Shown here: positions 23,986-63,735 of the stretch, piece by piece
How positions within the stretch are numbered: position 1 is the stretch's first letter
Layout of the letters: each line of letters opens with the position of its first letter
Source: Terebella lapidaria
Lineage: Eukaryota > Annelida > Polychaeta > Terebellida > Terebellidae
Assembly: GCA_949152475.1 (NCBI GenBank)
Contig: OX424568.1
Coordinates: 15,413,667 to 15,477,666 of the forward strand
DNA length: 64,000 nt
Direction of reading: 5' to 3'
The notes under the pieces: generated by a model
What the model saw: the letters and a program-made list of their open reading frames with translations, nothing else
Told to the model about the DNA's origin: nothing
Databases searched by the model: none
Translations under genes and position numbers: made by a program

Positions 23986-26285
23986 GAGGGGCCATAGGCC
24001 CGGCAGTTGACGAATTAGGAAGGTTACCGGACAATATATGTTTTAGATATATGTTTTAGTGAGATATTAGCCATTTTGTGCTCTGACCTGAATTTTCAAA
24101 TCATGAGAAGATTTAACATATACCATTTCCTATACATGTATGTCCAAAGCTGTAAAGTCGATAAAAAGCGATATATTAGCCACATTGTGCTCTGACCTTG
24201 AAAATGAGGTCAAAGGTCAAATGTCAAGGTCAAGGTCACAGAAGATAGAACTCGAGTTAATCTACAATATGAACTTGGTTTGAAGTCTCTAGGGCGATTA
24301 GAACCGAAGTTATGGGCATTTATGTGTTTTTGACATTTTATTTGACCTTGACCTTGACCTTTGACCTAGTGTCCCCAAATTTCACCCATTTCCAAGTATA
24401 CACAAAAGCATTTCATACGTACAATTTGGTCATGATACGTCCAAAACTGTGGCTTGTAGAGCGGTAATATACGAAGAACAAACTAGATTTTAATGATAAC
24501 AATAGAATGCAAAGCAGTTTTCCGTTGCCATGGCAACATTTTACAGGCGAATCTGACTAAAATCAATGGGTGCCTGGCTTTGAGCCTAAAGAATGTTCCC
24601 ATAAAGTTTGGTGATGATCCGACCTAAACTGTGATATGTTTCAGTTAGTTTGAAAATTTGACCTTAAAGTTTTGAATGTGTCCTCATTTTTGCGACCAAG
24701 TTCAAAGTCAATTATGAAATTGACATGTACGTATGATTACCATGCCTCTTCTGAATGATATGGTACGAATTTTATGAGACTACAAGGATTCAAGCAGATG
24801 TTATAAGCGAAAAGGTGATTTTCTGGGATTTCGATGACCTTGACCTTGACCTTTGACCTTTGTATTTCAATTCGTAGAGGTCAATGCTATTAATACGCAT
24901 GTCAAGTTTCAAGATATTCCATACAGTATTGACGCTGTTATGGCCTTTTGAAATTTCGGTAACTTGACGTTTATGACGTCATTGTGACGTGAGTGTACGT
25001 CGCAGCGCCGAAAATAAGGTATCACTGCAATCAGGGGGACAAGACCTTTCAAACGATATACTACTCGATATGATTCGCTGACCTTCGTACTTGACCTTGA
25101 CATTCACCTCATGGCGAACTTCTCAAGGTCAAAGTCAAATGCCAAGGTCAAGGTCACAGAAGATAGAACTCGAGTTTATCTACAATATGAACTTGGTTTG
25201 AAGTCGCTAGCACAAATAGAACCGGAGTTATGGCCACTTATGTGTTTTTAACATTTTGCGTGACCTTGACCTCGACTTTGGGACTTGAGTCACAAAAATT
25301 GTACATTTCCTGTGCATGAATATATATATTATATCTGTAAAATTTCATCAGAATCAAACAAAATTTGTGGACACTATGACCGTTTGAAATTTTAAAAAAT
25401 TAACGTTTATGACGTCACTGTGACGTAAATAAACGTCACATCTCAAAACTGATGAAAAAGTATGTACCAGGGAATCAAGACCTTTCATTTGATATACTAC
25501 TTGATAGGTTTCAGTTAGTTTTAAAATTTGACCTTGAAGTTCTCCTAATATGACCTTGTTTTCCTGACCAAGTTCAAGGTCAATCATGAAATTGACATAT
25601 AAGTCCGATTGCTATACCTCTTCTAAATGATATGGTTCAAATTTGATGAACCTACGACAATTCAAACGGATGCTATTACCGGAAACGTGTTTTTTTGGGA
25701 TTTTGATGACCTTGACCTTGACCTTTGACCTTTGCACTTAAATTCGTAGAGGTCATTGCTGTCAGTATGCATATCAAGTTTCAAGAGATTCCATACAGTA
25801 TTGACGATGTTATGGCCTTTTGAAATTTCGGGAATTTGACGTTTATGACGTCATTGTGACGTCAGTGTACGTCGCAGCGCCGAAAATAGGGTATCACTGC
25901 GATCAGGGGGTCAAGACCTTTCCACTGATATACTACTCAATATGCTGCGCTGACCTTCGTACTTGACCTTGACTTCGACCTGGGGCGAACTTTTCAAGGT
26001 CAAGGTCAAATGTCAAGGTCAAGGTCACAGACGATAGAACTCGGGTGTATCTACAATATGCACTTGGTTAGAAGTCTCTAGAATGATTAGAACCGGAGTT
26101 ATGACCACTTATGTGTTTTCAACGTTTTGTGTGACCTTGACCTTGACCTTTGACCTAGGGTCACCAAAATTCAACGGTTTCCAGGTATGTAACTAGCCAT
26201 TGTATCCATACGATTTGGTGATGATCCGGCCAAAACTGTGGCCTGTAACGTGCAAACAGACAGACAGACAGACAGACACACAAAC
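23986..26285 (+). mobile_element. Helitron-like element unit E1 (head, GACCTT-rich core, GACA microsatellite)
   Basis: The head after AAC is GAG, palindrome GGGCC-ata-GGCCC, then AGTTGACGAATT. The core repeats blocks about 430 bp apart (ATGACGTCA... followed by AAGACCTTTC and TATACTAC) and is rich in TGACCTTGACC and TGACCTTTGACC. The 3' part is GTGGCCTGTAACGTGCAAAC followed by (GACA)n. No hairpin tail follows; the next head (E2) begins instead. No protein is encoded; short frames are by-products. Confidence 0.65.
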
Positions 26286-28090
26286 GAGGGGCCATAGGCC
26301 CGGCAGTTGACGAATTAGGAAGGTTTTTCAAAGCAGTTTTTCCGTTGCCATGGCAACATTTTACAGGCGAATCTGACTAAAATCAATGGGTGCCTGGCTT
26401 TGAGCCTAAAGAATGTTCCCATAAAGTTTGGTGATGATCCGACCTAAACTGTGATATGTTTCAGTTAGTTTGAAAATTTGACCTTGAAGTTTTGAATGTG
26501 TCCTCATTTTTGCGACCAAGTTCAAAGTCAATTATGAAATTGACATGTACGTATGATTACCATGCCTCTTCTGAATGATATGGTTCGAATTTTATGAGAC
26601 TACAAGGATTCAAGCAGATGTTATAAGCGAAAAGGTGATTTTCTGGGATTTCGATGACCTTGACCTTTGACCTTTGTATTTCAATTCGTAGAGGTCAATG
26701 CTATTAATACGCATGTCAAGTTTCAAGATATTCCATACAGTATTGACGCTGTTATGGCCTTTTGAAATTTCGGTAACTTGACGTTTATGACGTCATTGTG
26801 ACGTGAGTGTACGTCGCAGCGCCGAAAATGAGGTATCACTGCAATCAGGGGGACAAGACCTTTCAAACGATATACTACTCGATATGATTCGCTGACCTTC
26901 GTACTTGACCTTGACATTCACCTCATGGCGAACTTCTCAAGGTCAAAATCAAATGCCAAGGTCAAGGTCACAGAAGATAGAACTCGAGTTTATCTACAAT
27001 ATGAACTTGGTTTGAAGTCGCTAGCACAAATAGAACCGGAGTTATGGCCACTTATGTGTTTTTAACATTTTGCGTGACCTTGACCTCGACTTTGGACCTT
27101 GAGTCACAAAAATTGTGCATTTCCTGTGCATGAATATATATATTATATCTGTAAAATTTCATCAGAATCAAACAAAATTTGTGGACACTATGACCGTTTG
27201 AAATTTTGAAAAATTAACGTTTATGACGTCACTGTGACGTCAATAAACGTCACATCTCAAAACTGATGAAAAAGTATGTACCAGGGAATCAAGACCTTTC
27301 ATTTGATATACTACTTGATAGGTTTCAGTTAGTTTTAAAATTTGACCTTGAAGTTCTCCTAATATGACCTTGTTTTCCTGACCAAGTTCAAGGTCAATCA
27401 TGAAATTGACATAAAGTCCGATTGCTATACCTTTTCTAAATGATATGGTTCAAATTTGATGAACCTACGGCAATTCAAACGGATGTTATTACCGGAAACG
27501 TGTTTTTCTGGGATTTTGATGACCTTGACCTTGACCTTTGACCTTTGCACTTAAATTCGTAGAGGTCATTGCTGTCAGTATGCATATCAAGTTTCAAGAG
27601 ATTCCATACAGTATTGACGATGTTATGGCCTTTTGAAATTTCGGGAATTTGACGTTTATGACGTCATTGTGACGTCAGTGTACGTCGCAGCGCCGAGAAT
27701 AGGGTATCACTGCGATCAGGGGGTCAAGACCTTTCCAATGATATACTACTCAATATGCTGCGCTGACCTTCGTACTTGACCTTGACTTCGACCTGGGGCG
27801 AACTTTTCAAGGTCAAGATCAAATGTCAAGGTCAAGGTCACAGACGATAGAACTCGAGTGTATCTACAATATGCACTTGGTTAGAAGTCTCTAGAATGAT
27901 TACAACCGGAGTTATGACCACTTATGTGTTTTCAACGTTTTGTGTGACCTTGACCTTGACCTTTGACCTAGGGTCACCAAAATTCAACGGTTTCCAGGTA
28001 TATAACTAGGCATTGTATCCATACGATTTGGTGATGATCCGGCCAAAACTGTGGCCTGTAACGTGCAAACAGACAGACAGACAAACAAAC
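26286..28090 (+). mobile_element. Helitron-like element unit E2, shorter tandem copy of E1
   Basis: The same head is followed within about 40 bp by sequence matching E1 from about 24511 on, so E2 lacks the first ~480 bp of the E1 core. From there E1 and E2 agree closely at 1815-bp spacing (CCGTTGCCATGGCAAC at about 24527 and 26342). It ends in GTGGCCTGTAACGTGCAAAC and a short GACA/CAAA microsatellite. Confidence 0.75.
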
Positions 28091-28129
28091 AAGGGGCCAT
28101 AGGCCCGGCAGTTGACGAATTGCCATAGA

Positions 28130-30023: not shown

Positions 30024-30026
30024 AAC
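29207..30026 (+). repeat. First A core (inside element F)
   Basis: It matches the later A units from CAGAAATGTTGCTTTAGATC through the GACA microsatellite, but the sequence left of 29207 is F core, not the TATA-bearing flank found in later units. It marks the left breakpoint of the tandem duplication. Confidence 0.9.
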
Positions 30027-32753
30027 GAGAAAACATTGGCCAGTAGGCCAAAACTTGGCGAAATACTTGTATAATATCCATACCATATCTATGCTAACAC
30101 ATATGTACCATTATCATGATTATATCAGTAAGTTGTGATCCCGGTCAAAATATGATATCTGTTTTTCTCTATGAGCAATATTTACTGAAATGTAGTAATC
30201 TTTATGTCCAATGGACAATAATAGCCGACATGGTCACTTTTTGGCCTTTAAACACATAATAATGGCACCGTAACTGAAGTGTGGTCATGCTGAATACATT
30301 TGCTTGAAAAATAATTCTACTTTTGGTTTGCTGTAATTTGACACCACAAGTATAATCTAACGTGTTTTGTTCTACGATCAATATTTACTGAGATATACTG
30401 ATTTCAATGTTAAGAATGTAACTTTTTGGCCTTAAAACACACCAGAATAACATCATAACTGAACCATGGGCATTCTGAACTCATTCGCTTGAAAAAAAAT
30501 TTTACTTCCAGTTTTGTGTAATTTGACACCACAGGTGCAATCTGATACCAAACCATCCATACCATAGTGGAATATAACCCTCTGGGTCTGAAAATAACGT
30601 TCTTTTTGCTCTATGATCAATATTTACTGAGATATACTGATTTCAATGTTGAATGGGCGATAATAGGGGGGGAATGTCACTTTCTGGCCTTAAAACAAAC
30701 CAGAATAGCACGATAGCTGAACTGTGAGCATTCTGAACTCACTTGCTTCAAAAAAAAATCTACTTCCGGTTTTGTGTAATTTGACACCACAGGTGTAATC
30801 TGATACCAAACCATTCCTAGTGTAATGGAGTATAGCCCTTCGGGTCCGAAAATAACGTCCTTTTTGCTCTACGATCAATATTTACTGAGATATACTGATT
30901 TCAATGTAAAATGGGCGATAATAGGGGGAAATGGGCGATAATAGGGGAAAATGTCAATTTTTGGCCTTATACCACACCAGAATGGCATTATAACTGAAAT
31001 GTGGACATTCTGAATTCATTTGCTTCTAAAATAATTCTACTTCCGGTTTTGTGTAATTTGACACCACAGGTGTAATCTGATACCAAACCATCCCTAGTAT
31101 ACTAGTATAAAGCCCTTTGGGTCCGAAAATAGCGTCCTTTTTGCTCTACGATCAATATTTACTGAGATATACTGATTTCAGTGTTAAATGGGCGATAATA
31201 GGGGAAAATGTCACCTCTTGGCCTTATAACACACCAGAATGGCCTTATAGCTGAAATGTGGACATTCTTAACTCATTTTCTTCTAAAATAATTCTACTTC
31301 CGGTTTTGTGTAACTTGACACCACAGGTGTAATCTGATACAAAACCATTCCTATTATACTGTATTATAGCCCTCTGGGTCCGAAAATAACGTCCATTTTG
31401 CTCTACGATCAATATTTACTGAGATATACTGATTTCAGTGTTAAATGGGCGATAATAGGGGAAAATGTCACTTTTTGGCCTTAAAACACACCAGAATGGC
31501 AGGATAACTGAACTGTGGGCATTCTGAACTCATTTGCATCAAAAATAATTATAATTCCGGTTTTGTGTAATTTGACACCACAGGTGTAATCTGATACCAA
31601 ACCATTCCTAGTATACTGAATTCTAGCCCTCTGGGTCCGAAAATAACGTCCTTTTTGCTCTACGATCAATATTTACTGAGATATACTGATTTCAATGTTA
31701 AATGGGCGATAATAGGGGAAAATGTCACTTTTTGGCCTTAAAACACACCAGAATGGCACGATAACTGAACTGTGGGCATTCTGAACTCATTTGCATCAAA
31801 AATAATTCTACTTCCGGTTTTGTGTAATTTGACACCACAGGTGTAATCTGATACCAAACCATCCCTAGTATACTCGAATATAGCCCTTTCGGTCCGAAAA
31901 TAACGTCCTTTTTGCTCTACGATCGATATTTACTGAGATATACTAATTTCAATGTAAAATGGACGATAATAGGGGGAAATGGGCGATAATAGGGGAAAAT
32001 GTCAATTTTTGGGCTTATAGCACACCAGAATGGCATTATAACTGAAATATGGACATTCTGAACTCATTTGCTTGAAAAATAATTCTACTTCCGGTTTTGT
32101 GTAATTTGACACCACAGGTGTAATCTGATACCAAACCATTCCTAGTATACTGGTTTATAGCCCTTTGGGTCCGAAAATAACGTCCTTTTCGCTCTACGAT
32201 CAATATTTACTGAGCTATACTGATTTCAATGTAAAATGGGCGATAATAGGGGGAAATGGGCGATAATAGGGGAAAATGTCAATTTTTGGCCTTATAACAC
32301 ACCAGAATGGCATTATAACTGAAATGTGGACATTCTGAACTCATTTGCTTCTAAAATAATTCTACTTCCGGTTTTGTGTAATTTGACACCACAGGTGTAA
32401 TCTGATACCAAACTATACCTAGTATACTGGTATAAAGCCCTTTGGGTCCGAAAATAACGTCCTTTTTGCTCTACGATCAATATTTACTGAGATATACAGT
32501 TTTGAATTTAACATTGGCTTAAATGGCAGAAAAGATTCTAACTATTCCTGTGACCTTGACCTTTGACCTTTGACCTTGAAAAGTTGGGCTGATCTAAGTT
32601 AGCCTATGGCTGTTATGTGTGGCAAGTTTGGTTTAGATCACACGAGAACTGTGGCCTGTACGATGCGAACAAACAAACAAACAGACAGACAGACGGACAG
32701 ACAAACTCTAGTGACCAACATACTTGGCAAAATCGAAGATTTCGCCAAGTAAC
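30027..32753 (+). mobile_element. Helitron-like element X1 in the F microsatellite
   Basis: Head: GAGAAAAC, palindrome GGCC-agta-GGCC, then ACTTGGCGAAAT (30053-30064). The body is about nine ~257-bp units (CTACTTCCGGTTTTGTGTAA, CACCACAGGTGTAATCTG, GCTCTACGATCAATATTTAC). The tail has TGACCTTGACCTTTGACC, GTGGCCTGTACGATGCGAAC, a GACA/CAAA microsatellite and a hairpin with arms ACTTGGCAAAATC/GATTTCGCCAAGT. The left flank GACAAACAAAC and right flank AAACGGAACTG together equal an uninterrupted A-A junction. Confidence 0.75.
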
Positions 32754-32800
32754 AAACGGAACTGACCAACATAGTTGTCGAATTTTCAATTCGTCAACTA

Positions 32801-33005
32801 ATAAAGCTTCGCAAGTAGAAGAGACCCTGCGTATATCCGTTTCATGTACAGGATCTTTGGTTTTTAGATGAATGGTGCTCCCTACGCATTTTCGTAAATG
32901 TCGATAGTGCTGATATAAAAGAGCCCCTGGCTCGCCAGAGATTGTATTTAAACAAGAGTTTTAGGCTTTGTTATATCACTTGTGCATTACTGAGTTAGAA
33001 AACCA
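32801..33005 (+). repeat. ~205-bp flank trapped in each A unit (representative)
   Basis: The stretch from after the F hairpin to GTTAGAAAACCA is absent from the first A core at 29207 but present in every later unit. It therefore probably began as DNA immediately downstream of element F and was carried along by tandem duplication. Confidence 0.7.
32914..32921 (+). promoter_or_regulatory. TATA-box-like motif in the A unit (representative)
   Basis: TATAAAAG precedes a small CTGG-ctcg-CCAG hairpin by a few bases. The same motif recurs in all 18 complete A flanks and in the last partial unit. No transcript start can be shown from sequence. Confidence 0.25.
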
Positions 33006-33784
33006 CAGAAATGTTGCTTTAGATCAGTATTCAGATGCATACAAGGTATATTGTATTACTACGCGACCGAGTGTTGACATTAGAGACGGTACATGTGCAC
33101 AGGGGGTAATCGTTTCCACATCTTATTGAGTTGTAAACGGGCTGACGAACAGATTTACCCCAGGTCTCTTTAAGTCTTGATATCTCAGCGAGTTTTCAAG
33201 TTATTTTGAACATGAAAAATGCACCTTAAACTAGAAATAACACCGCATTTTTCCACAAAACAGCTTCAAAATTCAATGTTCAATGATTTTTTGAAAATTG
33301 GATCCAGAGGAAAAATAAATGTATCCATAAAACCCGGAATCCGGATCCGATCCGGATGAAATTTTGTCAGTTTATGGACCATGATAGTCCGCCACTTTGT
33401 AGGAAAAATCAAGCTGAAATATGCACAATAGACCGAAATATAATATAAAATATAAGTTAAATGGAGTTTTCAATGTTAAATTCAAATAGCTGTCAAATCC
33501 GTAATCCGGGTCCGATCCGGGTCAAAATTATAATGTGTGTATAGGATGTCATTCTACACATGTGACTAAAATTTCAAGAGAATTCATTGAAAATTGAACG
33601 AGTTATGAATTTTTGAAAAATCGCCCCATGTTAAAGATAGGGATTTTTCGAGTTTTCAAGAATTTTTGATGACGTCATCAATAAACCGATTTTCTTCAAA
33701 AACTTTCGGTGTCCTTCCTGGGTGAATACCTACCTATCAGAAAAATTTGGTGATGCTCGCACTAAAACTGTGGCCTGTAACGTG

Positions 33785-33822
<38 letters not shown>

Positions 33823-34856
33823 AACAAACGGAACTGACCAACATAGTTGTCGAATTTTCAATTCGTCAACTAATAAAGCTTCGCAAGTAGAAGAGACCCT
33901 GCGTATATCCGTTTCATGTACAGGATCTTTGGTTTTTAGATGAATGGTGCTCCCTACGCATTTTCGTAAATGTCGATAGTGCTGATATAAAAGAGCCCCT
34001 GGCTCGCCAGAGATTGTATTTAAACAAGAGTTTTAGGCTTTGTTATATCACTTGTGCATTACTGAGTTAGAAAACCACAGAAATGTTGCTTTAGATCAGT
34101 ATTCAGATGCATACAAGGTATATTGTATTACTACGCGACCGAGTGTTGACATTAGAGACGGTACATGTGCACAGGGGGTAATCGTTTCCACATCTTATTG
34201 AGTTGTAAACGGGCTGACGAACAGATTTACCCCAGGTCTCTTTAAGTCTTGATATCTCAGCGAGTTTTCAAGTTATTTTGAACATGAAAAATGCACCTTA
34301 AACTAGAAATAACACCGCATTTTTCCACAAAACAGCTTCAAAATTCAATGTTCAATGATTTTTTGAAAATTGGATCCAGAGGAAAAATAAATGTATCCAT
34401 AAAACCCGGAATCCGGATCCGATCCGGATGAAATTTTGTCAGTTTATGGACCATGATAGTCCGCCACTTTGTAGGAAAAATCAAGCTGAAATATGCACAA
34501 TAGACCGAAATATAATATAAAATATAAGTTAAATGGAGTTTTCAATGTTAAATTCAAATAGCTGTCAAATCCGTAATCCGGGTCCGATCCGGGTCAAAAT
34601 TATAATGTGTGTATAGGATGTCATTCTACACATGTGACTAAAATTTCAAGAGAATTCATTGAAAATTGAACGAGTTATGAATTTTTGAAAAATCGCCCCA
34701 TGTTAAAGATAGGGATTTTTCGAGTTTTCAAGAATTTTTGATGACGTCATCAATAAACCGATTTTCTTCAAAAACTTTCGGTGTCCTTCCTGGGTGAATA
34801 CCTACCTATCAGAAAAATTTGGTGATGCTCGCACTAAAACTGTGGCCTGTAACGTG

Positions 34857-34902
<46 letters not shown>

Positions 34903-35936
34903 AACAAACGGAACTGACCAACATAGTTGTCGAATTTTCAATTCGTCAACTAATAAAGCTTCGCAAGTAGAAGAGACCCTGCGTATATCCGTTTCATGTA
35001 CAGGATCTTTGGTTTTTAGATGAATGGTGCTCCCTACGCATTTTCGTAAATGTCGATAGTGCTGATATAAAAGAGCCCCTGGCTCGCCAGAGATTGTATT
35101 TAAACAAGAGTTTTAGGCTTTGTTATATCACTTGTGCATTACTGAGTTAGAAAACCACAGAAATGTTGCTTTAGATCAGTATTCAGATGCATACAAGGTA
35201 TATTGTATTACTACGCGACCGAGTGTTGACATTAGAGACGGTACATGTGCACAGGGGGTAATCGTTTCCACATCTTATTGAGTTGTAAACGGGCTGACGA
35301 ACAGATTTACCCCAGGTCTCTTTAAGTCTTGATATCTCAGCGAGTTTTCAAGTTATTTTGAACATGAAAAATGCACCTTAAACTAGAAATAACACCGCAT
35401 TTTTCCACAAAACAGCTTCAAAATTCAATGTTCAATGATTTTTTGAAAATTGGATCCAGAGGAAAAATAAATGTATCCATAAAACCCGGAATCCGGATCC
35501 GATCCGGATGAAATTTTGTCAGTTTATGGACCATGATAGTCCGCCACTTTGTAGGAAAAATCAAGCTGAAATATGCACAATAGACCGAAATATAATATAA
35601 AATATAAGTTAAATGGAGTTTTCAATGTTAAATTCAAATAGCTGTCAAATCCGTAATCCGGGTCCGATCCGGGTCAAAATTATAATGTGTGTATAGGATG
35701 TCATTCTACACATGTGACTAAAATTTCAAGAGAATTCATTGAAAATTGAACGAGTTATGAATTTTTGAAAAATCGCCCCATGTTAAAGATAGGGATTTTT
35801 CGAGTTTTCAAGAATTTTTGATGACGTCATCAATAAACCGATTTTCTTCAAAAACTTTCGGTGTCCTTCCTGGGTGAATACCTACCTATCAGAAAAATTT
35901 GGTGATGCTCGCACTAAAACTGTGGCCTGTAACGTG

Positions 35937-35978
<42 letters not shown>

Positions 35979-37012
35979 AACAAACGGAACTGACCAACAT
36001 AGTTGTCGAATTTTCAATTCGTCAACTAATAAAGCTTCGCAAGTAGAAGAGACCCTGCGTATATCCGTTTCATGTACAGGATCTTTGGTTTTTAGATGAA
36101 TGGTGCTCCCTACGCATTTTCGTAAATGTCGATAGTGCTGATATAAAAGAGCCCCTGGCTCGCCAGAGATTGTATTTAAACAAGAGTTTTAGGCTTTGTT
36201 ATATCACTTGTGCATTACTGAGTTAGAAAACCACAGAAATGTTGCTTTAGATCAGTATTCAGATGCATACAAGGTATATTGTATTACTACGCGACCGAGT
36301 GTTGACATTAGAGACGGTACATGTGCACAGGGGGTAATCGTTTCCACATCTTATTGAGTTGTAAACGGGCTGACGAACAGATTTACCCCAGGTCTCTTTA
36401 AGTCTTGATATCTCAGCGAGTTTTCAAGTTATTTTGAACATGAAAAATGCACCTTAAACTAGAAATAACACCGCATTTTTCCACAAAACAGCTTCAAAAT
36501 TCAATGTTCAATGATTTTTTGAAAATTGGATCCAGAGGAAAAATAAATGTATCCATAAAACCCGGAATCCGGATCCGATCCGGATGAAATTTTGTCAGTT
36601 TATGGACCATGATAGTCCGCCACTTTGTAGGAAAAATCAAGCTGAAATATGCACAATAGACCGAAATATAATATAAAATATAAGTTAAATGGAGTTTTCA
36701 ATGTTAAATTCAAATAGCTGTCAAATCCGTAATCCGGGTCCGATCCGGGTCAAAATTATAATGTGTGTATAGGATGTCATTCTACACATGTGACTAAAAT
36801 TTCAAGAGAATTCATTGAAAATTGAACGAGTTATGAATTTTTGAAAAATCGCCCCATGTTAAAGATAGGGATTTTTCGAGTTTTCAAGAATTTTTGATGA
36901 CGTCATCAATAAACCGATTTTCTTCAAAAACTTTCGGTGTCCTTCCTGGGTGAATACCTACCTATCAGAAAAATTTGGTGATGCTCGCACTAAAACTGTG
37001 GCCTGTAACGTG

Positions 37013-50571: not shown

Positions 50572-51602
50572 AAACGGAACTGACCAACATAGTTGTCGAA
50601 TTTTCAATTCGTCAACTAATAAAGCTTCGCAAGTAGAAGAGACCCTGCGTATATCCGTTTCATGTACAGGATCTTTGGTTTTTAGATGAATGGTGCTCCC
50701 TACGCATTTTCGTAAATGTCGATAGTGCTGATATAAAAGAGCCCCTGGCTCGCCAGAGATTGTATTTAAACAAGAGTTTTAGGCTTTGTTATATCACTTG
50801 TGCATTACTGAGTTAGAAAACCACAGAAATGTTGCTTTAGATCAGTATTCAGATGCATACAAGGTATATTGTATTACTACGCGACCGAGTGTTGACATTA
50901 GAGACGGTACATGTGCACAGGGGGTAATCGTTTCCACATCTTATTGAGTTGTAAACGGGCTGACGAACAGATTTACCCCAGGTCTCTTTAAGTCTTGATA
51001 TCTCAGCGAGTTTTCAAGTTATTTTGAACATGAAAAATGCACCTTAAACTAGAAATAACACCGCATTTTTCCACAAAACAGCTTCAAAATTCAATGTTCA
51101 ATGATTTTTTGAAAATTGGATCCAGAGGAAAAATAAATGTATCCATAAAACCCGGAATCCGGATCCGATCCGGATGAAATTTTGTCAGTTTATGGACCAT
51201 GATAGTCCGCCACTTTGTAGGAAAAATCAAGCTGAAATATGCACAATAGACCGAAATATAATATAAAATATAAGTTAAATGGAGTTTTCAATGTTAAATT
51301 CAAATAGCTGTCAAATCCGTAATCCGGGTCCGATCCGGGTCAAAATTATAATGTGTGTATAGGATGTCATTCTACACATGTGACTAAAATTTCAAGAGAA
51401 TTCATTGAAAATTGAACGAGTTATGAATTTTTGAAAAATCGCCCCATGTTAAAGATAGGGATTTTTCGAGTTTTCAAGAATTTTTGATGACGTCATCAAT
51501 AAACCGATTTTCTTCAAAAACTTTCGGTGTCCTTCCTGGGTGAATACCTACCTATCAGAAAAATTTGGTGATGCTCGCACTAAAACTGTGGCCTGTAACG
51601 TG

Positions 51603-51652
<50 letters not shown>

Positions 51653-52686
51653 AACAAACGGAACTGACCAACATAGTTGTCGAATTTTCAATTCGTCAAC
51701 TAATAAAGCTTCGCAAGTAGAAGAGACCCTGCGTATATCCGTTTCATGTACAGGATCTTTGGTTTTTAGATGAATGGTGCTCCCTACGCATTTTCGTAAA
51801 TGTCGATAGTGCTGATATAAAAGAGCCCCTGGCTCGCCAGAGATTGTATTTAAACAAGAGTTTTAGGCTTTGTTATATCACTTGTGCATTACTGAGTTAG
51901 AAAACCACAGAAATGTTGCTTTAGATCAGTATTCAGATGCATACAAGGTATATTGTATTACTACGCGACCGAGTGTTGACATTAGAGACGGTACATGTGC
52001 ACAGGGGGTAATCGTTTCCACATCTTATTGAGTTGTAAACGGGCTGACGAACAGATTTACCCCAGGTCTCTTTAAGTCTTGATATCTCAGCGAGTTTTCA
52101 AGTTATTTTGAACATGAAAAATGCACCTTAAACTAGAAATAACACCGCATTTTTCCACAAAACAGCTTCAAAATTCAATGTTCAATGATTTTTTGAAAAT
52201 TGGATCCAGAGGAAAAATAAATGTATCCATAAAACCCGGAATCCGGATCCGATCCGGATGAAATTTTGTCAGTTTATGGACCATGATAGTCCGCCACTTT
52301 GTAGGAAAAATCAAGCTGAAATATGCACAATAGACCGAAATATAATATAAAATATAAGTTAAATGGAGTTTTCAATGTTAAATTCAAATAGCTGTCAAAT
52401 CCGTAATCCGGGTCCGATCCGGGTCAAAATTATAATGTGTGTATAGGATGTCATTCTACACATGTGACTAAAATTTCAAGAGAATTCATTGAAAATTGAA
52501 CGAGTTATGAATTTTTGAAAAATCGCCCCATGTTAAAGATAGGGATTTTTCGAGTTTTCAAGAATTTTTGATGACGTCATCAATAAACCGATTTTCTTCA
52601 AAAACTTTCGGTGTCCTTCCTGGGTGAATACCTACCTATCAGAAAAATTTGGTGATGCTCGCACTAAAACTGTGGCCTGTAACGTG

Positions 52687-52732
<46 letters not shown>

Positions 52733-53766
52733 AACAAACGGAACTGACCAACATAGTTGTCGAATTTTCAATTCGTCAACTAATAAAGCTTCGCAAGTAG
52801 AAGAGACCCTGCGTATATCCGTTTCATGTACAGGATCTTTGGTTTTTAGATGAATGGTGCTCCCTACGCATTTTCGTAAATGTCGATAGTGCTGATATAA
52901 AAGAGCCCCTGGCTCGCCAGAGATTGTATTTAAACAAGAGTTTTAGGCTTTGTTATATCACTTGTGCATTACTGAGTTAGAAAACCACAGAAATGTTGCT
53001 TTAGATCAGTATTCAGATGCATACAAGGTATATTGTATTACTACGCGACCGAGTGTTGACATTAGAGACGGTACATGTGCACAGGGGGTAATCGTTTCCA
53101 CATCTTATTGAGTTGTAAACGGGCTGACGAACAGATTTACCCCAGGTCTCTTTAAGTCTTGATATCTCAGCGAGTTTTCAAGTTATTTTGAACATGAAAA
53201 ATGCACCTTAAACTAGAAATAACACCGCATTTTTCCACAAAACAGCTTCAAAATTCAATGTTCAATGATTTTTTGAAAATTGGATCCAGAGGAAAAATAA
53301 ATGTATCCATAAAACCCGGAATCCGGATCCGATCCGGATGAAATTTTGTCAGTTTATGGACCATGATAGTCCGCCACTTTGTAGGAAAAATCAAGCTGAA
53401 ATATGCACAATAGACCGAAATATAATATAAAATATAAGTTAAATGGAGTTTTCAATGTTAAATTCAAATAGCTGTCAAATCCGTAATCCGGGTCCGATCC
53501 GGGTCAAAATTATAATGTGTGTATAGGATGTCATTCTACACATGTGACTAAAATTTCAAGAGAATTCATTGAAAATTGAACGAGTTATGAATTTTTGAAA
53601 AATCGCCCCATGTTAAAGATAGGGATTTTTCGAGTTTTCAAGAATTTTTGATGACGTCATCAATAAACCGATTTTCTTCAAAAACTTTCGGTGTCCTTCC
53701 TGGGTGAATACCTACCTATCAGAAAAATTTGGTGATGCTCGCACTAAAACTGTGGCCTGTAACGTG

Positions 53767-53812
<46 letters not shown>

Positions 53813-53815
53813 AAC
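50572..53815 (+). repeat. A satellite block, three cores
   Basis: Three ~1080-bp units, identical by eye to other A units except for GACA count. Confidence 0.95.
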
Positions 53816-56800
53816 GAGAAAACATTGGCCAGTAGGCCAAAACTTGGCGAAATACATGTATAATATCCATACCATATCTATGCTAACACATATGTACTAT
53901 TATATCGGTAAGTTGCGATCCCGGTCAAAAAATGATATCTATTTTTCTCTACGAGCAATATTTACTGATATGTAGTCCTTTTTGCTCTTCATTCAATATT
54001 TACTTAGATATACTGATTTCAATGTTAAATGGGCGATAATAGAGAAAAATGTCATTTTTTTGCCTTAAAACACACCAGAATGGCACGATAACGGAAATGT
54101 GGGCATTCTGAACTCATTTGCATCAAAAATAATTCTACTTCCGGTTTTGTGTAATTTGAAACCACAGGTGTAATCTGATACCAAACCATTCCTAGTATAC
54201 TGGATTATAGCCCTTTGGGTTCGAAAATAACGTCCTTTTTGCTCTACGATCAATATTTACTGAGATATACTGATTTCAATGTTAAATGGGCGACAATAGG
54301 GGAAATTGTCCCTTTTGGCCTTAAAACACACCAGAATGGCAAGATAACTGAACTGTGGGCATTCTGAACTCATTTGCATCAAAAATAATTCTACTTCCGG
54401 TTTTGTGTAATTTGACACCACAGGTGTAATCTGACACCAAACCATTCTTAGTATACTGGATTATAGCCCTCTGGGTCCGAAAATAACGTCCTTTTTGCTC
54501 TACGATCAATATTTACTGAGATATACTGATTTCAATGTTAAATGGGCGATAATAGGGGAAAATGTCACTTTTTTTGCCTTAAAACACACCAGAATGGCAT
54601 TATAACTGAACTTTGGGCATTCTGAACTCATTTGCTTCAAAAATAATTCTACTTCCGGTTTTGTGTAATTTGACACCACAGGTGTAATCTGATACTAAAC
54701 CATCCTTAGTATACTGGAATATAGCCCTTTGGGTCTGAAAATAACGTCCTTTTTGCTCTACGATCAATATTTACTGAGATATACTGATTTCAATGTTAAA
54801 TGGGCGATAATAGGGGAAAATGTCACTTTTTTGCCTTAAAACACACCAGAATGGCATTATAACTGAACTTTGGGCATTCTGAACTCATTTGCTTCAAAAA
54901 TAATTCTACTTCCGGTTTTGTGTAATTTGACACCACAGGTGTAATCTGATACCAAACCATCCTTAGTATACCGGAATATAGCCCTTTGGGTCCGAAAATA
55001 ACGTCCTTTTTGCTCTACGATCAATATTTACTGAGATATACTGATTTCAATGTTGAATGGGCGATAATAGGGGAAAATGTCACCTTTTGGCCTTAAAACA
55101 CATCAGAATGGCACGATAACTGAGCTGTGGGCATTCTGAACTCATTTGCATCAAAAATAATTCTACTTCCGGTTTTGTGTAATTTGACACCACAGGTGTA
55201 ATCTGACACCAAACCATTCTTAATATACTGGATTATAGCCCTCTGGGTCCGAAAATAACGTCCTTTTTGCTCTACGATCAATATTTACTGAGATATACTG
55301 ATTTCAATGTAAAATGGGCGATAATAGGGGGAAATGGGCGATAATAGGGGAAAATGTCACTTTTTGGCCTTATTACACACCAGAATGGCATTATAACTGA
55401 CATGTGGGCATTCTGAACTCATTTGCTTCAAAAATAATTCTACTTCCGGTTTGGTGTAATTTGACACCACAGGTGTAATCTGATACCCAAACCATCCTTA
55501 GTATACTGGAATATAGCCCTTCGGGTCCGAAAATAACGTCCTTTTTGCTCTACGATCAATATTTACTGAGATATACTGATTTCAATGTTAAATGGGCGAT
55601 ATTAGGGGAAAATGTCACTTTTTTTGCCTTAAAAACACACCAGAATGGCATTATAACTGAACTTTGGGCATTCTGAACTCATTTGCTTCAAAAATAATTC
55701 TACTTCCGGTTTTGTGTAATTTGACACCACAGGTGTAATCTGATACCAAACCATCCTTAGTATACTGGAATATAGCCCTTTTGGTCTGAAAATAACGTCC
55801 TTTTTGCTCTACGATCAATATTTACTGAGATATACTGATTTCAATGTTAAATGGGCGATAATAGGGGAAAATGTCACTTTTTTGCCTTAAAACACACCAG
55901 AATGGCATTATAACTGAACTTTGGGCATTCTGAACTCATTTGCTTCAAAAATAATTCTACTTCCGGTTTTGTGTAATTTGACACCACAGGTGTAATCTGA
56001 TACCAAACCATCCTTAGTATACTGGAATATAGCCCTTTGGGTCCGAAAATAACATCCTTTTTGCTCTACGATCAATATTTACTGAGATATACTGATTTCA
56101 ATGTTAAATGGGCGATAATAGGGGAAAATGTCACTTTTTTGCCTTAAAACACATCAGAATGGCACGATAACTGAGCTGTGGGCATTCTGAACTAATTTGC
56201 ATCAAAAATAATTCTACTTCCGGTTTTGTGTAATTTGACACCACAGGTGTAATCTGACACCAAACCATTCTAAGTATATTGGATTATAGCCCTCTGGGTC
56301 CGAAAATAACGTCCTTTTTGCTCTACGATCAATATTTACTGAGATATACTGATTTCAATGTAAAATGGGCGATAATAGGGGGAAATGGGCGATAATAGGG
56401 GAAAATGTCACTTTTTGGCCTTATTACACACCAGAATGGCATTATAACTGACATGTGGGCATTCTGAACTCATTTGCTTCAAAAATAATTCTACTTCCGG
56501 TTTTGTGTAATTTGACACCACAGGTGTAATCTGATACCAAACCATCCCTAGTATACTGGTATATAGCCCTTTGGGTCCGAAAATAACGTACTTTTTGCTC
56601 TACGATCAATATTTACTGAGATATACTGATTTCAATGTAAAATGGGCGATAATAGGGGGGAAATGGGCGATAATAGGGGAAAATGTCACTTTTTGGCCTT
56701 ATTACACACCAGAATGGCATTATAACTGACATGTGGGCATTCTGAACTCATTTGCTTCAAAAATGATTCTACTTCCGGTTTTGTGTAATTTGACACCACA

Positions 56801-57159
56801 GGTGTAATCTGATACCAAACCATCCCTAGTATACTGGTATATAGCCCTTCGGGTCCGAAAATAACGTCCTTTTTGCTCTACGATCAATATTTACTGAGAT
56901 ATACAGTTTTGAATTTAACATTGGCTTAAATGGCAGACGAGTTTCTAACTATTCCTGTGACCTTGACCTTTGACCTTCGACCTTGAAAAGTTGGGCTGAT
57001 CTAAGTTAGCATATGGCTGTTATGTGTGGCAAGTTTGGTTTAGATCACACGAGAACTGTGGCCTGTACGATGCGAACAAACAAACAAACAGACGGACGGA
57101 CGGACGGACAAACTCTAGTGACCAACATACTTGGCGAAATTTCTATTTCGCCAAGTAAC
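53816..57159 (+). mobile_element. Helitron-like element X5 (longest)
   Basis: Same subtype as X2 and X3, with about twelve ~257-bp units and the perfect 12-bp tail hairpin. Flanks restore the A-A junction. Confidence 0.78.
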
Positions 57160-58190
57160 AAACGGAACTGACCAACATAGTTGTCGAATTTTCAATTCGT
57201 CAACTAATAAAGCTTCGCAAGTAGAAGAGACCCTGCGTATATCCGTTTCATGTACAGGATCTTTGGTTTTTAGATGAATGGTGCTCCCTACGCATTTTCG
57301 TAAATGTCGATAGTGCTGATATAAAAGAGCCCCTGGCTCGCCAGAGATTGTATTTAAACAAGAGTTTTAGGCTTTGTTATATCACTTGTGCATTACTGAG
57401 TTAGAAAACCACAGAAATGTTGCTTTAGATCAGTATTCAGATGCATACAAGGTATATTGTATTACTACGCGACCGAGTGTTGACATTAGAGACGGTACAT
57501 GTGCACAGGGGGTAATCGTTTCCACATCTTATTGAGTTGTAAACGGGCTGACGAACAGATTTACCCCAGGTCTCTTTAAGTCTTGATATCTCAGCGAGTT
57601 TTCAAGTTATTTTGAACATGAAAAATGCACCTTAAACTAGAAATAACACCGCATTTTTCCACAAAACAGCTTCAAAATTCAATGTTCAATGATTTTTTGA
57701 AAATTGGATCCAGAGGAAAAATAAATGTATCCATAAAACCCGGAATCCGGATCCGATCCGGATGAAATTTTGTCAGTTTATGGACCATGATAGTCCGCCA
57801 CTTTGTAGGAAAAATCAAGCTGAAATATGCACAATAGACCGAAATATAATATAAAATATAAGTTAAATGGAGTTTTCAATGTTAAATTCAAATAGCTGTC
57901 AAATCCGTAATCCGGGTCCGATCCGGGTCAAAATTATAATGTGTGTATAGGATGTCATTCTACACATGTGACTAAAATTTCAAGAGAATTCATTGAAAAT
58001 TGAACGAGTTATGAATTTTTGAAAAATCGCCCCATGTTAAAGATAGGGATTTTTCGAGTTTTCAAGAATTTTTGATGACGTCATCAATAAACCGATTTTC
58101 TTCAAAAACTTTCGGTGTCCTTCCTGGGTGAATACCTACCTATCAGAAAAATTTGGTGATGCTCGCACTAAAACTGTGGCCTGTAACGTG

Positions 58191-58236
<46 letters not shown>

Positions 58237-59270
58237 AACAAACGGAACTGACCAACATAGTTGTCGAATTTTCAATTCGTCAACTAATAAAGCTTCGCAA
58301 GTAGAAGAGACCCTGCGTATATCCGTTTCATGTACAGGATCTTTGGTTTTTAGATGAATGGTGCTCCCTACGCATTTTCGTAAATGTCGATAGTGCTGAT
58401 ATAAAAGAGCCCCTGGCTCGCCAGAGATTGTATTTAAACAAGAGTTTTAGGCTTTGTTATATCACTTGTGCATTACTGAGTTAGAAAACCACAGAAATGT
58501 TGCTTTAGATCAGTATTCAGATGCATACAAGGTATATTGTATTACTACGCGACCGAGTGTTGACATTAGAGACGGTACATGTGCACAGGGGGTAATCGTT
58601 TCCACATCTTATTGAGTTGTAAACGGGCTGACGAACAGATTTACCCCAGGTCTCTTTAAGTCTTGATATCTCAGCGAGTTTTCAAGTTATTTTGAACATG
58701 AAAAATGCACCTTAAACTAGAAATAACACCGCATTTTTCCACAAAACAGCTTCAAAATTCAATGTTCAATGATTTTTTGAAAATTGGATCCAGAGGAAAA
58801 ATAAATGTATCCATAAAACCCGGAATCCGGATCCGATCCGGATGAAATTTTGTCAGTTTATGGACCATGATAGTCCGCCACTTTGTAGGAAAAATCAAGC
58901 TGAAATATGCACAATAGACCGAAATATAATATAAAATATAAGTTAAATGGAGTTTTCAATGTTAAATTCAAATAGCTGTCAAATCCGTAATCCGGGTCCG
59001 ATCCGGGTCAAAATTATAATGTGTGTATAGGATGTCATTCTACACATGTGACTAAAATTTCAAGAGAATTCATTGAAAATTGAACGAGTTATGAATTTTT
59101 GAAAAATCGCCCCATGTTAAAGATAGGGATTTTTCGAGTTTTCAAGAATTTTTGATGACGTCATCAATAAACCGATTTTCTTCAAAAACTTTCGGTGTCC
59201 TTCCTGGGTGAATACCTACCTATCAGAAAAATTTGGTGATGCTCGCACTAAAACTGTGGCCTGTAACGTG

Positions 59271-59316
<46 letters not shown>

Positions 59317-60350
59317 AACAAACGGAACTGACCAACATAGTTGTCGAATTTTCAATTCGTCAACTAATAAAGCTTCGCAAGTAGAAGAGACCCTGCGTAT
59401 ATCCGTTTCATGTACAGGATCTTTGGTTTTTAGATGAATGGTGCTCCCTACGCATTTTCGTAAATGTCGATAGTGCTGATATAAAAGAGCCCCTGGCTCG
59501 CCAGAGATTGTATTTAAACAAGAGTTTTAGGCTTTGTTATATCACTTGTGCATTACTGAGTTAGAAAACCACAGAAATGTTGCTTTAGATCAGTATTCAG
59601 ATGCATACAAGGTATATTGTATTACTACGCGACCGAGTGTTGACATTAGAGACGGTACATGTGCACAGGGGGTAATCGTTTCCACATCTTATTGAGTTGT
59701 AAACGGGCTGACGAACAGATTTACCCCAGGTCTCTTTAAGTCTTGATATCTCAGCGAGTTTTCAAGTTATTTTGAACATGAAAAATGCACCTTAAACTAG
59801 AAATAACACCGCATTTTTCCACAAAACAGCTTCAAAATTCAATGTTCAATGATTTTTTGAAAATTGGATCCAGAGGAAAAATAAATGTATCCATAAAACC
59901 CGGAATCCGGATCCGATCCGGATGAAATTTTGTCAGTTTATGGACCATGATAGTCCGCCACTTTGTAGGAAAAATCAAGCTGAAATATGCACAATAGACC
60001 GAAATATAATATAAAATATAAGTTAAATGGAGTTTTCAATGTTAAATTCAAATAGCTGTCAAATCCGTAATCCGGGTCCGATCCGGGTCAAAATTATAAT
60101 GTGTGTATAGGATGTCATTCTACACATGTGACTAAAATTTCAAGAGAATTCATTGAAAATTGAACGAGTTATGAATTTTTGAAAAATCGCCCCATGTTAA
60201 AGATAGGGATTTTTCGAGTTTTCAAGAATTTTTGATGACGTCATCAATAAACCGATTTTCTTCAAAAACTTTCGGTGTCCTTCCTGGGTGAATACCTACC
60301 TATCAGAAAAATTTGGTGATGCTCGCACTAAAACTGTGGCCTGTAACGTG

Positions 60351-60408
<58 letters not shown>

Positions 60409-61442
60409 AACAAACGGAACTGACCAACATAGTTGTCGAATTTTCAATTCGTCAACTAATAAAGCTTCGCAAGTAGAAGAGACCCTGCGTATATCCGTTT
60501 CATGTACAGGATCTTTGGTTTTTAGATGAATGGTGCTCCCTACGCATTTTCGTAAATGTCGATAGTGCTGATATAAAAGAGCCCCTGGCTCGCCAGAGAT
60601 TGTATTTAAACAAGAGTTTTAGGCTTTGTTATATCACTTGTGCATTACTGAGTTAGAAAACCACAGAAATGTTGCTTTAGATCAGTATTCAGATGCATAC
60701 AAGGTATATTGTATTACTACGCGACCGAGTGTTGACATTAGAGACGGTACATGTGCACAGGGGGTAATCGTTTCCACATCTTATTGAGTTGTAAACGGGC
60801 TGACGAACAGATTTACCCCAGGTCTCTTTAAGTCTTGATATCTCAGCGAGTTTTCAAGTTATTTTGAACATGAAAAATGCACCTTAAACTAGAAATAACA
60901 CCGCATTTTTCCACAAAACAGCTTCAAAATTCAATGTTCAATGATTTTTTGAAAATTGGATCCAGAGGAAAAATAAATGTATCCATAAAACCCGGAATCC
61001 GGATCCGATCCGGATGAAATTTTGTCAGTTTATGGACCATGATAGTCCGCCACTTTGTAGGAAAAATCAAGCTGAAATATGCACAATAGACCGAAATATA
61101 ATATAAAATATAAGTTAAATGGAGTTTTCAATGTTAAATTCAAATAGCTGTCAAATCCGTAATCCGGGTCCGATCCGGGTCAAAATTATAATGTGTGTAT
61201 AGGATGTCATTCTACACATGTGACTAAAATTTCAAGAGAATTCATTGAAAATTGAACGAGTTATGAATTTTTGAAAAATCGCCCCATGTTAAAGATAGGG
61301 ATTTTTCGAGTTTTCAAGAATTTTTGATGACGTCATCAATAAACCGATTTTCTTCAAAAACTTTCGGTGTCCTTCCTGGGTGAATACCTACCTATCAGAA
61401 AAATTTGGTGATGCTCGCACTAAAACTGTGGCCTGTAACGTG

Positions 61443-61488
<46 letters not shown>

Positions 61489-61491
61489 AAC
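57160..61491 (+). repeat. A satellite block, four cores
   Basis: Four ~1080-bp units. The fourth ends in a microsatellite that is interrupted by element D instead of X. Confidence 0.95.
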
Positions 61492-61590
61492 GAGAGCCCA
61501 TAGGGCACACACTTGCCGGAACCAAAATGTATGTCATATGCCAATGACATCACATATGGATTTAAGCAAATTGACGAAACTTTCTTCCCT

Positions 61591-61647
61591 ACTTACTACG
61601 TTTACTTACTTACTTACTTTACTTCATTTTACTTCACTTCACTTCAC
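61591..61647 (+). repeat. TTAC/TTCAC simple repeat
   Basis: ACTTACTTACTTACTTT followed by ACTTCATTTTACTTCACTTC; a low-complexity stretch inside element D. Confidence 0.85.
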
Positions 61648-61734
61648 AAACTACTCATACTATCATTGTTACCTCATTGAACGTCACAGCACCAAAAATA
61701 AGACATCACTGGACTCAGGAGACCAAGAACTTTC

Positions 61735-61858
61735 GGCCCAAGTATCATACACTGCGCCTTCTTCTATTTCAATAAGGATTAAAAAGGTGACAGACGGATT
61801 AAATGGCATGCATTTAGTGGACGAGTAGTATTTAGGAGCAGTGTATGATACTTGGGCC
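61735..61858 (+). mobile_element. 124-bp MITE with 8-bp target duplication (hAT-like size)
   Basis: Terminal inverted repeats of about 24 bp start GGCCCAAGTATCATACACTG and differ at one position. Both sides are flanked by GAACTTTC (61727-61734 and 61859-61866). An 8-bp duplication is typical of the hAT superfamily, but the TIR does not look like a known hAT end to me. It has no coding capacity. Confidence 0.85.
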
Positions 61859-63735
61859 GAACTTTCTAACGGTATACTACTCGATACGGTGGGAACATCG
61901 TACTTGACCTCGACATTGAGCTCATCGAAGTCTCAATAACAATGTCAAATGTCATATTCAAAGTAAATAAGAAAGGCTTCTTAAAATGCTGCAATATGGT
62001 CATATTTTGAACTCTCTACGGCGATTAGTTTCGAAGTTACGGCCATTCATGTGAGTTTGACGTAATTATGACATCAGTTGTAGTCATTTCTATACTGCAA
62101 ACTTACTGTGAATGGGTTTTTCTTCAATATGCATGTTAAAATCGTGTTTATATATGTTATATTATCACCTGACAAGATCATAATATCTTCAGATAATAAG
62201 TTTCCTTCGATTTGTTGCCACAAAAACGTCAATTACGTCAAAATGGATATATCAATTGAGCTAAAAATTGACAGAGCATCACAGGCCGAATCCACATCGT
62301 CTGCAGGTGTTAGGTCTACAGTAAATGTTATAAATTTGCACACCTGACACTCGAAAGACCTGAATGTCAGTCTGAAATCACGTTTGACGTCATTATGACG
62401 TCAATAGACGTCCGATTCCAAAAATGACAACAGATTTGGAAAGTACTTTTGAAGACCTTCCAAATGAGCTACTACTCAATATATTCACAAAAGGTCGAGG
62501 TCAAGGTCATTTTTGAGGTCAACTTTGACCTCAGGCGTCAGAGTCAATGATCACATTCAAGGTCACCTAAGAAAGGCCTTTCGATATGCTACAATATGCT
62601 CCTAGTCTGAACTCTCTACGATGATTAGTTCCAAAGTTATGGTCATTTATGTGATTTTGACCTCTTCTTTGACCTTGACCTTGACCTTTGACCTTGGGTC
62701 ACGAAAATTGTGCCTTGTCTGAGCATGAAAATATAGATTATACTCGAATATTTTAGTCACAATCGAACAAGAATTGTGGACACTATGGCCCTTTGAAATT
62801 TCAAAAAATTTACGTTGATGACGTCACTGTGACGTCAATAAACGTCAAATTTGAATATTAATGGGAAAGTGTGTGTCAGGGGAAAAAGACCTTTCATTTG
62901 ATATACTACTTGATATGTTTCAGTTAGTTTTAAAATTTGACCTTGAAGTTTTCCTCATGTGACCTCATTTTTCGGACCAAGTTCAAGGTCAATCATAAAA
63001 TTGACATATACGTCTAATTGTGATACCTCTTCTGAATGATATGGTTCAAATTTCATGAACCTAGGACGATTCCAACGGATGTTATTACCGAAACGTGTTT
63101 TTCTGGGATTTCGATGACCTTGACCTTGATCTTTGACCTTTGTACTTCAAGTCGTAGAGGTCAATGCTGTCAATATGCATACCAAGTTTCAAGGGATTCC
63201 ATACACTATTGACGATGTTACGGTCTTTTTAAATTTCGGAAATTTGACGTTTATGACGTCATTGTGACGTCAGTTTACGTCGCAGCACCAAAAATAAGAT
63301 ATCACTGGATTCAGGGGCTCAAGACCTTTCCAACAATATACTACTCGATATGCTGCGCCGAACTTCGTACTTGACCTTGACTTCGTCCTCAGGCGAACTT
63401 CTCAAGGTCAAGGTCAAAGGTCAAGGTCAAGGTCACGGAAGATAGAACTCGAGCATATCTATGATATGCACTTGATTTGAAGTCTCTACGATGATTAGAA
63501 CCAGAGTTGTAGCCACTTATGTGTTTTCAACGTTTTGCATGACCTTGACCTTGACCTTTAACCTAGAATCACCAAAATCGAACTTGACCTGCCCATTTTC
63601 CTACAGAATATGCACACCGACTTTGGAAAGATTCGATTAAGAAATGTGGACGCTAGAGTGCAAACAAACAAACAAACCAACAAACCCACAAACAGACCAA
63701 CATACTTGCCGAAATCGTAGATTCCGGCAAGTAAC

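Follow-up and report, generated by a model that had tools for sequence, protein, structure and literature searches.

Do the two ends of a mobile element carry matching sequence, and if so, which part of each end is held to the match? The question is raised by a stretch of 64,000 nucleotides from the polychaete Terebella lapidaria (C15:15413667-15477666; hereafter the window), which contains Helentron-like elements of several families, some of them in many nested copies. Read on the forward strand, each element opens with a head, in which a short palindrome is followed by a family-specific motif, here called the key, and closes with a tail, a hairpin with a left arm and a right arm. A preliminary description of the window had proposed that the head motif of each family equals the reverse complement of the right arm of its own tail. 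Following this proposal, we read the window in full and sampled the whole genome. Judged from sequence, the matched keys probably pair with each other or are recognised by a common partner, and they stay matched while the left arm drifts. In the terms used for Helitron2, a head is the 3' end and a tail the 5' end. The heads and tails of the window, and the tandem array in which many of them lie, are as follows.

1691..1721, +: head of the AGGC-family element at 1.7-4.2 kb, palindrome AAGGC-CTAAAGAT-GCCTT, key AGGCATTTC then GG at 1711-1721
4175..4198, +: tail of the same 1.7-4.2 kb element, AAGGCATTTC-TGCC-GAAATGCCTT
23983..24016, +: F head 1, AACGAG, palindrome GGGCC-ATA-GGCCC, key AGTTGACGAATT at 24005-24016
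26283..26316, +: F head 2, key AGTTGACGAATT at 26305-26316
28088..28121, +: F head 3, AAG replacing GAG, key AGTTGACGAATT at 28110-28121; overlooked by the automatic head detector
30024..30064, +: X1 head, AACGAGAAAACA, TTGGCC-AGTA-GGCCAA, key ACTTGGCGAAAT at 30053-30064
32713..32750, +: X1 tail, GACCAACAT, drifted left arm ACTTGGCAAAAT, right arm ATTTCGCCAAGT at 32739-32750
32764..32799, +: F tail, drifted left arm AGTTGTCGAATT, right arm AATTCGTCAACT at 32788-32799; repeated in ~1080-bp units up to 63781
32800..63781, +: tandem array of ~1080-bp units ending in the F tail, with four X copies and D inserted within it and X1 just upstream
37051..37091, +: X2 head, key at 37080-37091
39032..39068, +: X2 tail, perfect hairpin ACTTGGCGAAAT-TTCT-ATTTCGCCAAGT
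41229..41269, +: X3 head, key at 41258-41269
43228..43264, +: X3 tail, perfect hairpin
47585..47625, +: X4 head, key at 47614-47625
50531..50568, +: X4 tail, left arm drifted like that of X1
53813..53853, +: X5 head, key at 53842-53853
57120..57156, +: X5 tail, perfect hairpin
61489..61521, +: D head, AACGAGA, GCCC-ATA-GGGC, key ACTTGCCGGAA at 61511-61521
63695..63732, +: D tail, drifted left arm ACTTGCCGAAAT, right arm ATTCCGGCAAGT at 63721-63732

In the window the head motif was the reverse complement of the right arm at 12 of 12 bases in X (ACTTGGCGAAAT, in all five copies), at 12 of 12 in E/F (AGTTGACGAATT), at 11 of 11 in D (ACTTGCCGGAA) and at 9 of 9 in the 1.7-4.2 kb element (AGGCATTTC), whose match had previously been called probable. 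It had also been stated that the head still agrees with the right arm where the left arm has drifted, and we saw this in all four cases named (X1, X4, D and F), the left arm of these window tails having one altered base.

We then turned to the genome to which the window belongs (761,603,190 bases in 438 contigs), using the same pattern read backwards as the control for each search. Tails of the form GACCAACATANTTG numbered 5338 (control 16) and complete tail hairpins 5213 (control 0). Heads of the ACAAACGAG type were found 880 times (control 17), and heads with a GGCC palindrome and ACTTG[AGT]C 1080 times (control 12). For the F family there were 316 heads and 1265 tails, and for the AGGC family 4275 places with the head core GCCTTGGAGGCATTTC and about 3037 places with a tail (6075 strand matches of a palindromic pattern), all with control 0. 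A search for tails carrying A or T at key position 2 gave 0 matches. Pairings of heads and tails were drawn from the first 100 matches listed per search and are therefore samples, mostly from contig C1.

Twelve head families could be linked to a tail, namely X, F, GCCC-ATA (D), GGCC-ATA, GCCC-CTA, CGCC-ATA, A (ACTTGACGAAAT), Y, GCTC (ACTTGGCAAAAT), GTCGCGC (ACTTGGCCAAAT), Z (CTTGGCGAAAT, its head and tail joined by eye from neighbouring stretches) and AGGC. Several of them are related, and they do not stand for twelve independent events. The key is identical in head and right arm in 11 of the 12 families, over a span of only 11 bases in GCCC-ATA, GCCC-CTA and Z and of 9 in AGGC, while in Y it is off by one base. 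Summed over the seven distinct keys, 83 of 84 bases are identical, a value attained by 2 of 5040 pairings; there are two best pairings because X and Y have one right-arm key in common and are hence exchangeable. The motif thus varies between families, as first described, and matches within each except for the fixed one-base mismatch of Y. The short palindrome had been noted as a further difference between families. It does differ by family, but it varies independently of the key, since GGCC-ATA-GGCC occurs with three keys and the key ACTTGCCGGAA with five palindromes, and we rejected it as a component of the lock and key, though its own arms complement each other.

The nesting of the elements allows heads to be assigned to tails. 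A newcomer enters the microsatellite of an older element just before the hairpin, or the repeat just after the tail, so that the tails close in the opposite sequence to that in which the heads opened, as nested brackets do. One case lies at C1:8.62 Mb, where the heads GCCC-CTA, Y, D and GCCC-CTA are followed by four tails in mirrored order. Brackets were matched on C1 up to 41.24 Mb, with 66 heads (eight of them read from loci) and 100 tails; the search patterns allowed any base at key position 6, apart from one head pattern (ACTTG[AGT]C) that barred C there. As a result, position 6 of head and right arm was identical in 48 of 62 bracket pairs, nine more were Y (head T, tail G) and five disagreed, which makes 57 of 62 in agreement once the T/G of Y is allowed. 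Shuffling the tails in 20,000 trials gave a mean of 19.9 and a maximum of 33 agreements.

Without the eight hand-added heads, 41 of 55 pairs were exact, 8 were Y and 6 disagreed; with a duplicated block near 33.4-33.55 Mb counted once, the figures were 26 of 34, 5 and 3. In both cases 0 of 20,000 shuffles scored as high, and shuffling confined to 1-Mb clusters likewise reached the observed agreement in 0 of 20,000. Restricting the set to pairs shorter than 5 kb gave 32 exact out of 43, with 8 Y and 3 disagreeing, a result never equalled in 20,000 within-cluster shuffles, whose maximum was 30. On the same contig, heads and tails recur at constant offsets between C1:33.43-33.46 and 33.48-33.53 Mb (55,723 bases in the first part, 71,837 in the later part), which is a recent segmental duplication of nested Helentrons.

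Does the head follow the right arm in particular, or the hairpin as a whole? We read 23 head-tail bracket pairs in full, in the window and at other loci, and dropped one as spurious, its 'head' at 12350 being a chance match with 7 matches to the right arm and 8 to the left. In the other 22 the head was nearer to the right arm in 12, tied in 10 and nearer to the left arm in 0. The 12 include the two outer F heads, at 23983 and 26283, for which the tail assignment is uncertain, since from about 29.2 kb onward F tails recur many times in an array of near-identical tandem units. Among the matches listed, F heads had A at position 6 in 100 of 100, and 100 F tails all had the right arm AATTCGTCAACT, with A in 32, T in 64 and G in 4 at the left arm (counted by eye); the F-tail pattern fixed only the last five bases of the right arm, and many of the listed F tails are copies within one array.

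The GTCGCGC tail, with ACTTGACCAAAT as its left arm and ATTTGGCCAAGT as its right arm, led to two conflicting predictions for a head still unseen. The head that was found (locus L072) carries ACTTGGCCAAAT, which is the right-arm prediction and not the left-arm one, and genome-wide, with the discriminating position left free, 45 of 45 heads that fit the GTCGCGC pattern carry the right-arm version. Locus L064 (C1:33431230-33433800), read for a GTCGCGC head, had tails and no head, and no head was found in the 3 kb read at the tail C1:36486650 (L077). The GCTC family also yielded the head predicted from its tail, with an unrelated palindrome; both arms agree there, so this case does not discriminate between them.

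The AGGC family has no key in common with the other families, and in its heads G or A follows AGGCATTTC. We compared 55 heads with 50 tails on C1 up to 4.78 Mb. There were 41 heads with a tail within 6 kb, and 38 pairs after heads sharing a tail had been dropped. The head base equals the base extending the right arm in 37 of 38 pairs (33 G/G, 4 A/A) and the base extending the left arm in 0 of 38; the agreement with the right arm has a Fisher P of 7e-5 and was equalled in 6 of 100,000 shuffles. Both extension bases sit in the hairpin loop, so the match extends past the bases paired in the hairpin. The family can be divided into two subfamilies by this key extension (G or A), which co-varies with the tail.

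The comparison that had been suggested for the whole genome, of head with right arm against chance and against the left arm, thus came out in favour of the right arm in the samples taken; neither random association nor a left arm matched as often as the right, the two outcomes named beforehand as contrary, was seen.

The elements' bodies behave differently from their ends. In F, GCCC-ATA, GGCC-ATA, GCCC-CTA and CGCC-ATA, long body segments are about 80-92% identical despite two keys (AGTTGACGAATT versus ACTTGCCGGAA) and five palindromes, and X, GCTC and GTCGCGC elements have only short segments in common with these F/GCCC/GGCC/CGCC-type bodies. Bodies seem to have been swapped between end pairs while the end pairs remained matched.

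Many different matched end pairs in one genome provide strong evidence, at the level of sequence comparison, that the ends recognise each other or a common partner. In a single-stranded intermediate the two keys would pair, or be gripped by the same recognition element. Pairing between keys would compete with the terminal hairpin, open it and mark the partner end, as Bao and Jurka suggested, and the matched key would tell the Rep/helicase (RepHel) which distant end belongs to the nicked end among thousands of nested look-alikes. The constant flanks, GACCAACATA on one side and AA at the terminus, would serve as a common docking frame, with the key as the family-specific part. In 13 of 14 entries, all but Y, the duplex calculated for head and right arm exceeds the hairpin in strength; this is a rough guide only, as an intermolecular duplex is here compared with a hairpin.

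Several observations weigh against recognition or pairing between the keys. First, all 9 paired copies of Y are mismatched at position 6, with T in the head and G in the right arm, so that either one mismatch is tolerated or the ends of Y are recognised otherwise. Second, base 12 of the key is unmatched in the GCCC-ATA and GCCC-CTA families. Third, the families are not independent, the CC-key families having a common history and X and Z one tail type. Fourth, 1 of the 38 AGGC pairs (A/G) and 5 of the 62 bracket pairs disagree; a later-found head, C1:33491017, accounts for one of these five brackets, another lies in the tandem unit L064, where reading found no head, and three are without explanation. 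Finally, a protein that binds both copies of the key gives the same co-variation as base pairing. The proposal that a head must pair, or be recognised, with its own tail is upheld in part, as to the association; a perfect match is not needed, as Y shows, and the co-variation suits pairing and protein alike. One Y element, with its head at C1:8622231 and its tail at C1:8628186, offers a natural test of how strict the match must be.

Recognition by protein only is a serious alternative, which we hold to be somewhat short of an even chance. The family's Rep or another protein would bind the motif at both ends as an ordinary inverted repeat, without strand pairing, and keys would co-vary since a change in specificity must be met at both ends. 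Besides predicting this co-variation, it accommodates the constant mismatch of Y, and RepHel is abundant enough (150 matches scored of 234 candidates) that several specificities could coexist. It sits less well with the presence, in a single genome, of seven matched keys that are clearly distinct (eight if both AGGC forms are counted), including two only one base apart, with a left arm that could be a third copy for the protein and is not kept in drifted families, and with a duplex that beats the hairpin in nearly all calculated entries, as a pairing switch would need; none of the three is decisive.

Descent only, by which the ends are inherited together and their match is under no present constraint, appears improbable. 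The copies of a family stem from few masters, so association by family is expected, and Y would simply retain its mismatch. However, the left arm, only a few bases off and inherited along with the rest, drifts in the X, F, CC and GTCGCGC families while the head stays equal to the right arm; the AGGC base beside the left arm does not follow the head; and the 80-92% identical body segments occur between different matched end pairs. An artefact of recent local tandem amplification or of assembly, suggested by a window array so nearly perfect that the window copies are not independent, is refuted by the same pattern at loci outside the window and in families that the window lacks, and we give it almost no credence.

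If the matched keys do recognise or pair with each other, a bolder reading may be considered, which we regard as speculative and rather doubtful. The key would be a nucleic-acid specificity code of 9-13 nt, freely changeable within a constant frame; the ends of each family would meet through its base pairing, and one transposase type could serve many mutually exclusive families of the same genome. A change matched at both ends would found a new family, and the drifting inner arm would indicate that end-to-end pairing, and not the hairpin, is constrained.

To what class do the elements belong? With their anatomy read in reverse, they are in all probability non-autonomous Helentrons (HINEs), a class of rolling-circle transposons, with many related families in one genome. 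The right arm is the asymmetric terminal inverted repeat (ATIR), or subterminal inverted repeat (subTIR), and the left arm is the strand that it pairs with in the hairpin; the head motif corresponds to the opposite ATIR, and the palindrome makes up the second hairpin. On the other strand, elements of the ACTTG/AGTTG kind read TT, the reverse complement of the right arm, a loop of 2-6 nt, an imperfect complement and ATGTTGGTC, followed by a (CTGT)-type microsatellite, the body, the reverse complement of the head motif and the palindrome, with CTCGTT in the GAG families. The key of each family is therefore an ATIR of 9-13 nt that forms the hairpin's terminal arm at one end and lies just inside the second hairpin at the other. 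As in Helitron2, the 5' ATIR is part of a 5' hairpin, and the 3' ATIR is directly upstream of a 3' hairpin.

The subTIRs are asymmetric in position and broadly of the length known from Helentrons and HINEs, about 11-15 bp, and, as in those elements, a palindrome adjoins the 3' subTIR (types GCCC/GGGC, GGCC/GGCC, CGCC/GGCG, CGAC/GTCG, TTGGCC/GGCCAA, GCTC/GAGC and GTCGCGC/GCGCGAC). Most head searches demanded a palindrome; one without that demand still gave palindromes in the common heads, with imperfect arms in some copies. Microsatellites and central repeats are present as ACAG arrays and as 257-bp and 147-bp repeats, and the AGGC-family HINE at window 1691-4198 carries 147-bp repeats. A canonical Helitron1 (5' TC, 3' CTRR, A/T insertion, no 5' hairpin) was rejected, the ends being AAC|GAG...CAAGT|AA, or TT|ACTTG...CTC|GTT in the opposite strand, and each end having a hairpin. 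The GAG start given in the preliminary description is not universal, other families beginning ...AAATC or GAAGCAATC. A second head-like structure, CACTGC-TCC-GCAGTG-AC-ACTTGGCGAAATC, lies about 250 bases past the Z head in L067 (about position 2555) and recurs in L074 (about 583, minus strand); it is possibly a duplicated inner end.

Non-autonomous elements call for an autonomous partner. The scored Helitron_like_N matches mentioned above are genome-wide, and many are in long open frames. One open frame of 2,187 amino acids (L081) contains Helitron_like_N (4.8e-30), PIF1 (2.9e-21), OTU (1.2e-05) and Exo_endo_phos (1.2e-08), that is, the fusion of Rep/helicase and AP-type endonuclease that characterises Helentrons and HINEs. 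It lies inside a 21.3-kb D bracket, with a D head at C1:41201687 (minus strand) and a D-type tail, the next one listed, at C1:41180368, and D-type body sequence flanks it on both sides; the bracket was read except for about 6.6 kb (41192600-41199200). D is likely an autonomous family and the owner of this frame, the alternative being another element nested in D. The frame runs from head to tail, opposite to the majority orientation in Bao and Jurka. The RepHel elements at C1:73.76 Mb and 38.30 Mb were set aside as proof of autonomy, with no head or tail of their own found in the adjoining stretches read. Long Helentron frames in L066 and L068 have GDGNC-type stretches that resemble those of L081 by eye.

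The tandem array of the window shows how the elements enter one another. Compared with a reference unit, 15 of 16 units are identical over 950 bases and one has 949, and the unit consists of the tail half of an F-type element and further sequence. All six X and D insertions of the window are at one identical site, ACAAAC|AAACGG; the junctions read, 6 filled and 12 empty, are all alike within each kind, and the common AAC fits either a target left unduplicated, as is known for Helentrons and HINEs, which insert between T and T (A and A on the opposite strand), or duplication of AAC. The units are near-identical and the X insertions vary in repeat number, so X and D may have been inserted after the array was amplified. 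The stretch that follows the tail is homologous between the unit of L064 and the window unit from 32800 (77% over 286 bases) and is thus not random flanking DNA; head-less units seem to have spread as satellites. Elsewhere in the window, tandem repeats of 45, 49 and 135 bp (13493-14783, 15703-15899 and 18202-20096) surround what by eye is an apparent broken retroelement gag region.

How do these ends compare with known systems, as far as the available parts of the published accounts go? In Helitron2 (Bao & Jurka 2013, PMC3627910), the 5' ATIR is 0-2 bp from the end and pairs with downstream bases as the 5' hairpin, and the 3' ATIR is 20-30 bp from the end and adjoins the 3' hairpin. From compensatory changes in two related elements, on which the published model rests, pairing of the two ATIRs was proposed to open the 5' hairpin and set the replication endpoint. 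The present elements differ in that the one RepHel frame examined runs opposite relative to the ends, although such cases are mentioned there, in the presence of an endonuclease domain, and in a co-variation that is measured over many families of one genome.

HINE/DINE-1/Helentron elements (Thomas et al. 2014, PMC4067079) are alike in subTIRs, 3' palindrome, central repeats, microsatellite, T-rich target and a Rep/helicase partner that bears an endonuclease, whereas insertion here has often been into (ACAAAC)-type repeats of sibling elements, with nested tail stacks as the result. Cg_HINE of Crassostrea gigas (PMC7492417), likened here by description and not by sequence, has a subTIR of 11-12 bp with a complementary inverted repeat (IR) 1-12 bp off, a GTCY-type microsatellite, a satellite-like core and a 3' subTIR with palindrome. 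Element-specific changes were reported in its subTIR and IR, but the available part of that account describes no test of subTIR co-variation against IR drift. FoHeli of Fusarium oxysporum (PMC5148889) likewise has ATIRs with hairpins, self-insertion and composite elements, and evidence for joined ends; it differs in being fungal and in its five subgroups, and no ACAG microsatellite is mentioned in what is available of its description.

The preliminary description regarded the asymmetric ends as known and their co-variation as the novelty. The anatomy is indeed known, but family-specific subTIRs and the pairing model are already published as well (PMC3627910, PMC7492417). A limited search of the open-access literature by title and abstract found no genome-wide co-variation test and no comparison with the drift of hairpin arms. 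Given nested stacks, copies in the thousands and seven matched keys that differ clearly, or eight if both AGGC forms are counted, the pairing model becomes directly testable, and such a genome can answer which copy of the key is constrained, which mismatches are tolerated and whether the number of keys tracks the number of transposases. In practice the tail predicts the head, so the partner end of a Helentron can be found from it, as was done here for two families. Compared with these systems, in which the anatomy and the idea of pairing were already known, what is new here is unusually strong co-variation evidence for a pairing model already proposed.

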